From positions 2,170,001 to 2,234,000 of the forward strand of contig NZ_CP133038.1 in NCBI RefSeq assembly GCF_033060595.1: DNA of 64,000 nt. Direction: 5' to 3'. The translations under genes and the position numbers were made by a program. The stretch comes from Pyramidobacter sp. YE332 (GTDB lineage Bacteria; Synergistota; Synergistia; Synergistales; Dethiosulfovibrionaceae). Of this stretch, positions 13,205-63,822 are shown piece by piece. The notes under the pieces are model-generated. The model had not been told where the DNA came from. It made no database searches and saw only the letters and a list, made by a program, of their open reading frames with translations. Numbering within the stretch: position 1 is the stretch's first letter; each line of letters starts with the position of its first letter.

Positions 13205-14113
13205 ATGAAGATTGCCATTATCGGCGCAGGGGCGATGGGGAGCCTTTTTGGTGGTTATCTGTCGCAGAAGAACGACGTTTATCTTGTGGATATTTGGGAA
13301 GCTCATGTAAACGCAGTGAACGAGCAGGGGCTCAAAATTGAGGAGAAAAACGGAGCACTTCGCGTCTTTCACCCGAAGGCGACAACAGACGCAAGCACTG
13401 TAGGCGCAATTGATCTCGCGATCGTGTTCGTAAAATCCATCCAGACCGCCGAGGCAATGGAAAAGAACCATTCATTAATTGGTCCTGATACGATAGTGCT
13501 CTCTCTTCAGAATGGTTACGGCAATGACGCAGATATTTGTCGCTTTGTCGATAAAAAGAACGTTATCCTCGGCACCACGGCACATGGTTGCACAATGAAG
13601 GGGCCTGGACACGTATACCACGCTGGGGTTGGCTTAAACCATATCGGGCCAATTATCGGAGAGTGCGCAGCGGCTGCAAATGTGGCGGACGTGTTGACTG
13701 CCTGCGATTTGAAAACTGATGTTTCCAGCGATGTCATGAGACTTGTATGGAGCAAGCTGTTTGTCAATGTGGGGATCAACGCGATAACCGCTTTGCTGAA
13801 GATGCCTAATATCTGTATTGCTGAAAATCATTACGCCAACGCGCTGTCGAAGGAATTGGTATACGAGGCTGTAAAAACGGCAAACGCCGGTGGGGCCAAT
13901 TTTGATCCATCTCAGGTGTTTGCGAACGTGGTAGACATTGCGCGCGCGACGGGAGCGAACCAGTCGTCCATGTTGCAGGATGTGTTGAAGAATCGGAAAA
14001 CCGAGATCGGTAAAATCAACGGCGCCGTTATAAAAGAAGCTGAAACACAGCATGTGGACGTGCCCGTGAACAGTACGATCGTGAAATTGATTCAAGCTTT
14101 GGAATTGCAATAG
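13205..14113 (+). CDS. Ketopantoate reductase family (ApbA/PanE-like) NADPH oxidoreductase
   Basis: 302 residues, the normal PanE length. The Rossmann motif GAGAMGSLFGGYL is at residues 7-19. Further family features are VKSIQTAEAM, LQNGYGNDADI and GTTAHGCTMKGPGHVYHAG in the N-terminal domain and SKLFVNVGINAITALLKMPN in the helical C-terminal domain, which carries the active-site Lys region. The classical reaction reduces 2-dehydropantoate to pantoate with NADPH; many family members act on other 2-oxo acids or run in reverse. AAAGGAGGAG precedes ATG 13205. It is first in the island's plus-strand series, and a PanB gene lies beyond the IS110 insertion, which supports a C6 pantoate-type substrate. 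Confidence 0.85.
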   Translation: MKIAIIGAGAMGSLFGGYLSQKNDVYLVDIWEAHVNAVNEQGLKIEEKNGALRVFHPKATTDASTVGAIDLAIVFVKSIQTAEAMEKNHSLIGPDTIVLSLQNGYGNDADICRFVDKKNVILGTTAHGCTMKGPGHVYHAGVGLNHIGPIIGECAAAANVADVLTACDLKTDVSSDVMRLVWSKLFVNVGINAITALLKMPNICIAENHYANALSKELVYEAVKTANAGGANFDPSQVFANVVDIARATGANQSSMLQDVLKNRKTEIGKINGAVIKEAETQHVDVPVNSTIVKLIQALELQ

Positions 14114-61969: not shown

Positions 61970-63049
61970 TTACAGCGCTTCGAAATACTTCTTCATCCAC
62001 TCGCGGGCGAACTCGCTGTACGCCCACAGCCGGGATTCATTTTTGCCCCTCTGGTCGGCGTACCAATAGCCGAACTCGTTGCGTTCGCCCTTGGGCGCTT
62101 TCAGCCGGTAGCGGAGCGCGACTTTACCGATGTATCCCCGGCTCGTCTCGAACTCTTCCGCCAGCTGCGTGGCGGTGTAGTAGCCGCGCGCCGGAGGGAC
62201 GAAGCGGTAACAGCGCCGACGCCGTCGCGCCTTCTTTCCCGGCAGAGGCAGCGCCAGCTGGTCTTCCTTCCGCGGCGCGCTTTCCGGCAGCTTCTCAGGC
62301 CCTTTGGTCAGGATTGATTCGGGCTTCTTCATCCCCTCCAGCAGCGCCAGATTGCGGCGCAGCAGTTCGAGGCGTTCGGCCTCGTGATCCACTTCGATCT
62401 CGACCACGCGGTCGGAATGCCCGCGGATGATCTCTTCCATGGCGTTGAAGGCCTTGATGTAGGCTTCTTTGAACGCCGCCGCTTTCTTGCCCGTGTAGCC
62501 CATCACGAGGAACGTGAACCCGTCGCGGGTCATCATGTAGTAGGGAACTTCTTTTTGCGCGCCGTTAGCAACTTCAACGGTTCGGGACAAGAGCTCAAAA
62601 TTGAGCTTTTGAAAATCAAAGGAACAGTCCAGCTCTTTAATATCTCGCATCACATTTTTATGTTCCTTCTCGAAATACTTGGACACGTCCATGCTGCCGA
62701 CGCGGGCTTCGCCCTTCCAGAGCGTCACGCCGAGGGTGGAGCTTTCGGGCGCGACCGGCCGGGCGAAGAAGCCGTAGGTCACTTCCTGATTCGACCAGTT
62801 GTTGAACATCGACTCCAGCGATTCGAGACTGACCTCGCAGTTGTGCTTGATCAGGTCGGCGATGTACAGATACGCCACGAACAGATTGTCGCCGTACTTC
62901 CATCTCCGGTCGACGCCTTCGGGGAACCTGTGAAGCCCCTGATTCCAGAGCGCCAGCGCTTCGCGAATCGCCATGGCCCGAACGGCCTCATTGGGGAGCT
63001 GGTTGAACAGATGGTCCTTGCCGTAGAGTTTCGGTAATGGTGCGAGCAT
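61970..63049 (-). CDS. Rha-family phage regulatory protein with extra N- and C-terminal regions
   Basis: 359 residues. The centre (about 113-215) is a pRha domain: VGSMDVSKYFEKEHKNVMRD, FELLSRTVEVANGAQKEVPY and YYMMTRDGFTFLVMGYTGKK, followed by AFKEAYIKAFNAMEEII. Before it lies an unrecognised region of about 110 residues (YGDNLFVAYLYIADLIKHN); after it come a basic stretch (GKKARRRRRCYRFV) and a helix-turn-helix-like end (YYTATQLAEEFETSRGYIGK). Rha proteins modulate phage development. GGAGGT lies before ATG 63049. The first codons are duplicated at 63410-63441. Confidence 0.85.
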   Translation of the reverse strand: MLAPLPKLYGKDHLFNQLPNEAVRAMAIREALALWNQGLHRFPEGVDRRWKYGDNLFVAYLYIADLIKHNCEVSLESLESMFNNWSNQEVTYGFFARPVAPESSTLGVTLWKGEARVGSMDVSKYFEKEHKNVMRDIKELDCSFDFQKLNFELLSRTVEVANGAQKEVPYYMMTRDGFTFLVMGYTGKKAAAFKEAYIKAFNAMEEIIRGHSDRVVEIEVDHEAERLELLRRNLALLEGMKKPESILTKGPEKLPESAPRKEDQLALPLPGKKARRRRRCYRFVPPARGYYTATQLAEEFETSRGYIGKVALRYRLKAPKGERNEFGYWYADQRGKNESRLWAYSEFAREWMKKYFEAL

Positions 63050-63138
63050 GTTTTTACCTCCATGAATAATCGCTCATCCACAGAGGGCAGAAGATTGTGG
63101 TATAATCTCCATGGAACCTCTGTGGTTCTGGGGCCCCG
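63018..63138. repeat. Duplicated 120-bp module, copy A
   Basis: About 93% identical to 63410-63529. It covers the first codons and ribosome-binding site of rha (minus strand), an inverted repeat CCACAGAGG/CCTCTGTGG, and a plus-strand extended -10 promoter. Identity stops at CCCCG, after which each copy has its own terminator stem. Confidence 0.9.
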
Positions 63139-63189
63139 AATAACCAAGTCCGGCCAAAGACTTGATGGTTATTCGGGGTTGCCTTTTTT
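63113..63189 (+). ncRNA. Candidate small RNA, copy A
   Basis: TGG-TATAAT (63098-63106) is an extended -10 with a weak -35 (TCCACA). The predicted transcript has a first hairpin GGAACC-TCTGT-GGTTCT and a second stem pairing CCCCGAATAACC with GGTTATTCGGGG, followed by TTTTTT. An ATG at 63111 opens MEPLWFWGPE, but it lies at the predicted transcript start. The 3' stem overlaps the end of the excisionase-like gene in antisense. Confidence 0.45.
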
Positions 63190-63327
63190 GAGTTCGCTTT
63201 CAGGAATGCGCCACGCCTTCCCGAACTTTACGCCTTTCATTCGGCCTGTACGCAGCCATATCCTCACGGTGTCAATGTGAACTCCAATGATTTCGGCAAC
63301 CTCCTTTACTGTGAGAAGTTTATCCAT
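63169..63327 (-). CDS. Excisionase-type helix-turn-helix protein
   Basis: 52 residues. KLLTVKEVAEIIGVHIDTVR, IWLRTGRMKGVKFGKAWRIP is the complete winged HTH_17/MerR-like domain found in phage excisionases and small regulators. GGAGGG lies before ATG 63327; the earlier in-frame ATG overlaps it. It probably binds element DNA to control excision or transcription. The last codons lie in the arm of the copy A terminator. Confidence 0.88.
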   Translation of the reverse strand: MDKLLTVKEVAEIIGVHIDTVRIWLRTGRMKGVKFGKAWRIPESELKKGNPE

Positions 63328-63366
63328 TTCTCGCCCTCCTTCCTTATTCACGATGATACCATATGA

Positions 63367-63441
63367 TTAAAGATGATTCAAGGGGGGCAGAAAAATATTC
63401 TCGAAGAGGTTGCCGTAGAGTTTCGGTAGTGGTGCGAGCAT
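63367..63441 (-). pseudogene. Duplicated 5' stump of rha
   Basis: A 24-codon frame starts at ATG 63441 with GGAGGT upstream. Its first ten residues, MLAPLPKLYG, equal those of Rha, and it then diverges (NLFENIFLPP) and stops. It is part of the duplicated module and probably does not function. Confidence 0.7.
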
Positions 63442-63529
63442 TTTTTACCTCCATGAATAATGGCTCATCCACAGAGGATAGAAGATTGTGATATAATCTC
63501 CATGGAACCTCTGTGGTTCTGGGACCCCG
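63410..63529. repeat. Duplicated 120-bp module, copy B
   Basis: About 93% identical to 63018-63138 in direct orientation, with roughly eight differences. The extended -10 and both arms CCACAGAGG and CCTCTGTGG are unchanged; differences fall mostly outside them. Confidence 0.9.
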
Positions 63530-63577
63530 TTCATCTGTCTTCTGCCGAGAAGATTTTGCAGATGCGCGGGGTTTTTG
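63504..63577 (+). ncRNA. Candidate small RNA, copy B
   Basis: TGA-TATAAT (63489-63497) is an extended -10. The transcript would share hairpin 1 with copy A and then form a different terminator: ACCCCG-N2-CATCTG pairs with CAGATG-N2-CGGGGT, followed by TTTTTG. It ends at the stop codon of the convergent RHH-like gene, just as copy A ends at that of the excisionase-like gene. Confidence 0.45.
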
Positions 63578-63766
63578 CTATTTGTCCGCAGGTTCAAATT
63601 TTAATGTACCGGCGGCAAAGCGTTCCATAAAATTCTCAAGCACGGTGTTCATGGGAAGCCCCAACTCCACGCACTTAATCTTGAAAGGCAGTAGCTTTTC
63701 AGAATTAATCGTCGTGGTGAAGGTTTTTCTTCCCCTTGAGTTTTCCTCTTCGCCTCGCTTTGCCAT
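63578..63766 (-). CDS. Small ribbon-helix-helix-like protein
   Basis: 62 residues. A basic N-terminus precedes RKTFTTTINSEKLLPFKIKC, a short strand and helix, and VELGLPMNTVLENFMERFAA, the second helix, as in Arc/CopG-type repressors. GAGGTGA precedes ATG 63766 and a consensus promoter lies upstream. It is likely an autoregulated DNA-binding protein of the element. Confidence 0.7.
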   Translation of the reverse strand: MAKRGEEENSRGRKTFTTTINSEKLLPFKIKCVELGLPMNTVLENFMERFAAGTLKFEPADK

Positions 63767-63793: not shown

Positions 63794-63822
63794 ATTATAA
63801 ACATGTTTTTACATAGTGTCAA
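63794..63822 (-). promoter_or_regulatory. Consensus promoter of the RHH-like gene
   Basis: Minus-strand TTGACA and TATAAT, both exact, are spaced by 17 bases. The spacer holds AAACATGTTT, a perfect palindrome that may be the autoregulatory operator. Confidence 0.85.

Follow-up and report, generated by a model that had tools for sequence, protein, structure and literature searches.

A predicted antisense RNA switch in the leader of a prophage antirepressor gene of Pyramidobacter

The window analysed here is a stretch of 64,000 nucleotides from Pyramidobacter sp. YE332 (contig NZ_CP133038.1, positions 2,170,001 to 2,234,000), and coordinates are positions within it unless otherwise stated. The minus strand carries, in this order, the gene of an Arc-like ribbon-helix-helix (RHH) repressor (63578..63766; phrog_3180), a module designated module 2, a truncated ant start, an HTH regulator gene, module 1, and ant. 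The ant gene (61970..63049), which we propose as the target of the modules, encodes a 359-aa Rha-domain antirepressor-like protein (PF09669, E 1e-28; phrog_518, phrog_373 and phrog_63, for which the PHROGs labels are Rha-like and anti-repressor). The truncated ant start (MLAPLPKLYGNLFENIFLPPLNHL, 24 codons, 63367..63441) lies behind module 2, apparently as a duplication scar, and the HTH_17/excisionase-like regulator gene (63169..63327) has its stop codon within the terminator of module 1. A promoter scan placed a perfect TTGACA-17-TATAAT promoter in front of the Arc-like operon (63794..63822, minus strand) and TTGAAT-17-TATCAT in front of the HTH gene (63353..63381, minus strand). Inside the spacer of the former is a palindrome, TATAAACATGTT/AACATGTTTTTA, at 63796-63811, a possible candidate for an autorepression operator.

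The original prediction had assigned this locus to an integrative element, which can be specified as a prophage by its terminase, head-tail, tail and endolysin genes, together with a CI-like repressor that has a UmuD-like part. Its insertion site is the 3' end of a tRNA-Thr gene, and on the second contig of the assembly attP is found in joined form. The att core, AGTCGGCTCCATTTTTT, was found at ~59808 in the window and at 104892 in the same numbering, beyond the window. On the second contig (18 kb; L006, G000:C2), the prophage ends are joined at the tRNA-Thr att site, with the junction at about 13911-13930, an indication that the sequenced DNA included an excised form of the prophage, circular or tandem. 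The CI-like repressor with its UmuD-like peptidase part is encoded at the far end of the prophage (L009 4520-5236; 103520-104239 in window numbering) and is the likely partner of the antirepressor.

The two modules lie in a direct repeat (63018-63138 and 63410-63529) whose copies are 94-95% identical, in agreement with the two near-identical copies of about 120 bp that had been predicted. The repeat stops where the two terminators start to diverge, and it also includes the Shine-Dalgarno (SD) sequence and codons 1 to 10 of the antirepressor gene on the minus strand. Each copy has a plus-strand promoter, TCCACA-18-TATAAT with TG before the -10 (63077..63106 and 63468..63497), and the promoter scan returned four sites in the region, including both of these, against 1.3 per shuffled region. 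The extended -10 had been described as unchanged; both sites were indeed found by the scan, but the base after TG differs (TGG in one promoter, TGA in the other). From these promoters we predict sRNA1 (63113..63189), a countertranscript of the ant leader, and sRNA2 (63504..63576), both on the plus strand, about 73-77 nt long and with two hairpins each. Specifically, sRNA1 consists of a 5' hairpin (63114-63128), a terminator stem (63134-63178) and a T-run (63184-63189), and sRNA2 of a 5' hairpin (63505-63519), a terminator from 63525 and a T-run (63572-63576). Both predicted RNAs fold far better than their shuffles (z of -4.6 and -5.3, respectively). As had been claimed, the first hairpin (GAACC-UCUGU-GGUUC) is common to both RNAs and the terminator arms are unlike each other; the 5' 20 nt are identical. 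The T-runs of both terminators are found on the plus-strand side only, indicating that the stems end plus-strand transcripts and are not separators of minus-strand genes; a terminator of the sense (minus) strand was ruled out, as that side has no T-run. A mini-ORF (MEPLWFW) had also been noted at the transcript start; its ATG is present in both copies, but the ORF is not conserved in the relatives described below and was hence rejected.

The leader of ant in module 1 contains, in this order, segment A (CCACAGAGG, 63117..63125, minus strand), which is the complement of the 5' hairpin of the RNA, the complement of the antisense -10, segment B (CCUCUGUGGAUGA, 63074..63086, minus strand), which is a copy of the recognition part of the RNA, and the SD arm (UUAUUCAUGGAGG, 63057..63069, minus strand; SD GGAGGU at 63056-63061). 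Segment B is predicted to pair either with A (9 bp, -17.6 kcal/mol) or with the SD arm (13 bp, -16.5 kcal/mol). The region covered by the RNA stops ~63 nt before the ant start codon and leaves the SD uncovered. Because the sRNA promoter lies upstream of that codon, the RNA cannot cover the ribosome site directly.

We consider it probable that both plus-strand RNAs are countertranscripts that repress ant translation through this A/B/SD switch, module 2 having arisen by cassette insertion. The promoters, the two-hairpin RNAs, the plus-only terminators, the antisense position, the A/B/SD complementarity and its recurrence are derived from the sequence, and we infer the RNA-dependent refolding of the leader and the shut-off of ant translation. 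In the absence of the RNA, A would pair with B and the SD would be open. The RNA would contact the leader, probably via its 5' hairpin and terminator loop, and once A was occupied, B would form a 13-bp stem with the SD, shutting off ant translation. Repression of the upstream promoter by the Arc-like protein, together with the antisense RNA, would keep the antirepressor silent in lysogens.

Antisense control of antirepressors is already known from P22 and P1/P7. The P22 arc-sar-ant region resembles the window in having an RHH repressor gene, an antisense RNA whose terminator overlaps the repressor stop, and an antirepressor gene, and sar, like the window RNAs, is ~70 nt long with two hairpins. 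The window RNAs likewise lie on the opposite strand between the Arc-like and antirepressor genes and terminate at the upstream stop, the upstream gene being that of HTH_17 for module 1. Unlike P22, the window has an extra HTH gene and two modules. Furthermore, sar is transcribed from a promoter within ant and extends to the ribosome site, whereas in the window the RNA would be made from a promoter in the leader, the SD stays uncovered and an A/B switch is present. A direct block of the ribosome site as by sar, in which CCUCUGU of the RNA pairs in trans with AUGGAGG at the SD, would draw on the fact that CCUCUGU is the same in the RNA and in segment B. We regard this as unlikely, since the covered region ends ~63 nt upstream of the start codon while sar ends 1 nt before ant, CCUCUGU of the RNA is within its own hairpin, and segment B offers 13 pairs in cis against 7. 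By analogy, the window RNA would work like sar; it is not filed as sar because it has no Rfam match at cut-off and its promoter lies outside ant. The covariance model of sar (RF00262) gave no match to the window modules up to E 10, while P22 itself scored 97.8 bits.

A search for the module in further genomes, suggested along with the original prediction, found the same layout again, extended -10 included, in different letters. With the window antirepressor alone as a query, no relatives were obtained from IMG/VR or GTDB contigs, and relatives were therefore reached by whole-genome search; an exact 30-nt module pattern and a profile of the antirepressor N-terminal domain also gave zero matches in IMG/VR. 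The relatives include antirepressors from the same bacterial family, which share the N- and C-terminal parts and have a different middle domain. In these loci the anatomy is the same and the letters differ: the stop of an Arc-like gene lies in the terminator, followed by the 5' hairpin, the extended -10, the leader and ant. The window Arc-like repressor shares 48-49% identity with its Arc-like counterparts in the relatives (two matches from a search with this protein, L246 and L247, were discarded as false), and in one relative, L022, an HTH gene and another terminator precede the same leader. The layout was also found in an IMG/VR contig (L095), a further Synergistota genome (L116), Firmicutes genomes (L161, L221, L224 and L225) and named phages chosen solely by RHH protein similarity, namely phiCDIF1296T, Funu2, phiJH1301-1, ES-S-0107-01 and Streptococcus Javan phages. 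The A/B/SD layout thus occurs with unrelated sequences in prophages of Synergistota, Firmicutes and Fusobacterium. For example, A, B and SD are GAAAGAAGUA, UACUUCUUUC and GAAAGGAG in L161 and CCAAAAUAAAGGUUUGU, GCAAACCUCUAUUUUGG and AUGGAGGUUU in L221; as read from the sequences, the letters change across loci and the A/B/SD logic is kept.

A scan for the layout in 1.3 Mb gave 23 matches, of which about 10 were distinct, compared with 0.67 per shuffled set; in its strict form it recovered only 3 of the 12 named-phage loci, the rest being placed by eye from their leaders. The distance from the upstream stop to the start codon was 112-136 nt in the main set. The pattern TATAAT-N-GAATAACC-N-GGTTATTC matched 74 stretches, mostly by chance, with only L142 (identical to L095), L161 and L173 being relevant, and an L161-type pattern added one more contig from IMG/VR and, out of 391 genomes, no additional one. 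The downstream genes are mostly of antirepressor type, and not all are recognised as such (L095, L173, L221 and some Streptococcus phages). In L173 (~1740-1895), a Synergistaceae MAG, the module lies before the gene of a 705-aa membrane protein resembling a TRAP-type transporter and lacks an upstream RHH gene; this module is perhaps a captured or stray copy.

We compared the cost of opening the SD after removal of the antisense-covered part of the leader. The median change was +5.6 kcal/mol in 10 non-redundant modules and -0.06 in 397 control genes (p 1.7e-7), the main-set modules being partly chosen for A:B pairing and in some cases mutually related. The covered state by itself, on which modules had not been chosen, also differed from the controls (p 2e-5). 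In addition, five short-leader phages picked by their RHH protein only all agreed, with changes of +3.9 to +7.0. L225 is an exception, in that A:B is present and closure by B:SD is almost nil. Note that the best predicted fold of the full window leader already closes the SD (P unpaired 0.43), indicating that A:B and B:SD are nearly balanced and that the on-state would rest on co-transcriptional or kinetic effects.

Leaders of 155-181 nt were observed in L231, L235, L236, L239, L240 and L242, which are Streptococcus phages and a satellite. These loci have the same RHH gene and antisense RNA and leave the SD unclosed. In several of them B lies in a hairpin followed by TTTTT, which is likely an antisense-controlled transcription attenuator. 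SD closure is strong with short leaders and weak with long ones, and the two types appear to use different outputs. In pT181, antisense pairing removes an anti-element and frees a segment for the off structure (PMC4878617). The window leader resembles this attenuation in its two mutually exclusive pairings, one of which is predicted to be removed by the antisense RNA; the pT181 output is transcription termination, whereas that of the window would be SD closure. The off structure in the window is not an intrinsic terminator, as no U-run follows B:SD; a U-run is found in the long-leader Streptococcus phages. ctRNA_pT181 (RF00242) had no match in the window, and the antisense RNA of one relative, L238, matched it weakly (33.6 bits, below the cut-off of 56). 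These comparisons bear on a transcriptional effect on the minus-strand transcript, either promoter collision or antisense-induced termination, which the convergent promoters and the pT181-like hairpins of several long-leader relatives (PMC4878617) would favour. For the window we consider it quite unlikely, given that the B:SD stem is followed by UAAAAAC and that the strong SD closure of short leaders contrasts with weak closure in long ones.

The original prediction had taken the 3' ends of the convergent regulator genes as the targets, with each terminator stopping exactly at a gene end. The sRNA1 end (~63189) does fall within the final 7 codons of the HTH gene, counting the stop, and that overlap would speak for regulation of this gene; the sRNA2 end (~63576) is reached 2 nt before the RHH stop codon, and this RNA has no overlap with the RHH coding region. 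Furthermore, the conserved half of the RNA, its 5' hairpin, faces the downstream leader, in the relatives that of a mostly antirepressor-type gene, and the variable half faces the upstream gene, making regulators as targets very unlikely. What was retained is the prediction of two mobile-element RNAs of ~75 nt that share their 5' part and vary in their 3' part, which the anatomy and the relatives support.

We next consider the recognition loop. A terminator loop with UUGG in the antisense or sense RNA was present in 20 of 25 modules against 3.4 expected (maximum of 11 in 2000 shuffles), some modules being related so that the events are not all independent. In window module 1 the U-turn is in the sense loop, UUUGGCCG, and module 2 has no UUGG. 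YUNR U-turns mark the recognition loop of either partner in antisense pairs that start by loop contact (PMC4485353), and such a U-turn on either strand is found here. That the repeats are merely a duplicated promoter/operator region with a terminator and an RNA without function is hardly credible: inverted repeats around a promoter can be operators, but A and B change along with the SD across phyla and U-turn loops are enriched in the terminators.

Two further systems invite comparison with the A/B/SD switch. In pMV158 (copG - RNAII - repB), as in the window, a repressor gene is cotranscribed with the target and the antisense RNA is intergenic, and CopG is also an RHH protein; unlike the window, the target is a plasmid replication initiator and RNAII is 48 nt with a single hairpin. 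The stretch of mRNA covered by RNAII lies immediately 5' of the translation start signals, and translation is inhibited (PMC4485353, PMC5717011). The c4 RNA of P1/P7 is an antisense RNA that holds a phage antirepressor off (PMC12197685), as the window RNAs would; unlike them, it pairs in trans with sequences around the ribosome site. The module region had no match to any Rfam family at cut-off, sar and c4-type RNAs included, and matches of CopA and PK-repBA in the window were weak and far below cut-off. A MAFFT alignment of the RNAs was too poor as a basis for a covariance model. The switch is apparently widespread and without an Rfam family. A literature search, mostly without subscription papers, found no account of it in these phages and does not establish priority.

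The double module has a counterpart in L161, a Peptostreptococcaceae MAG (sense strand, about 2100-2900), where two modules with a common 5' half and unlike terminators occur in the order RHH gene, module, truncated rha start, second RHH gene, second module and intact rha. As far as the sequence tells, this is the window layout, a tandem cassette with a truncated target start. In four module pairs (L161 m1/m2, L016/L017, phiJH1301-1/Javan566 and Javan53/Javan169), the 5' half and leader are 90-94% identical and the terminators 57-74%. Module 2 appears to be a scar that the insertion of a repressor cassette left behind. In the simplest account, recombination between phages inside the conserved leader would insert a repressor-plus-terminator cassette before ant, leaving a truncated ant start and a second RNA identical in its 5' 20 nt. 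Because this end is kept, sRNA2 probably acts on module 1 in trans, and the module 2 leader may soak up RNA.

More tentatively, and with doubts that outweigh our confidence, these loci could form a cross-phylum class of immunity cassettes (repressor - countertranscript RNA - antirepressor) with one switch design and two outputs, SD closure in short leaders and a terminator in long ones. The repressor and terminator would be exchanged as a unit, and each insertion would leave a trans-acting RNA that sets cross-immunity between prophages. If the proposed antisense control of ant holds, prophages of Synergistota, Firmicutes and Fusobacterium, Streptococcus and Clostridioides phages among them, would commonly have such control, and a conserved switch independent of sequence would make control loci findable. 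It would also explain the silence of antirepressors in these prophages and the rebuilding of immunity regions by cassette exchange, and provide a source of many natural antisense/leader pairs.

The antirepressors themselves show a mosaic structure. The ant protein of the window and those of L016, L017, L018 and L022 have common N- and C-terminal parts and differ in the middle domain, which is Rha in the window and BRO-N-like in the other four; this domain exchange may have swapped the target specificity.
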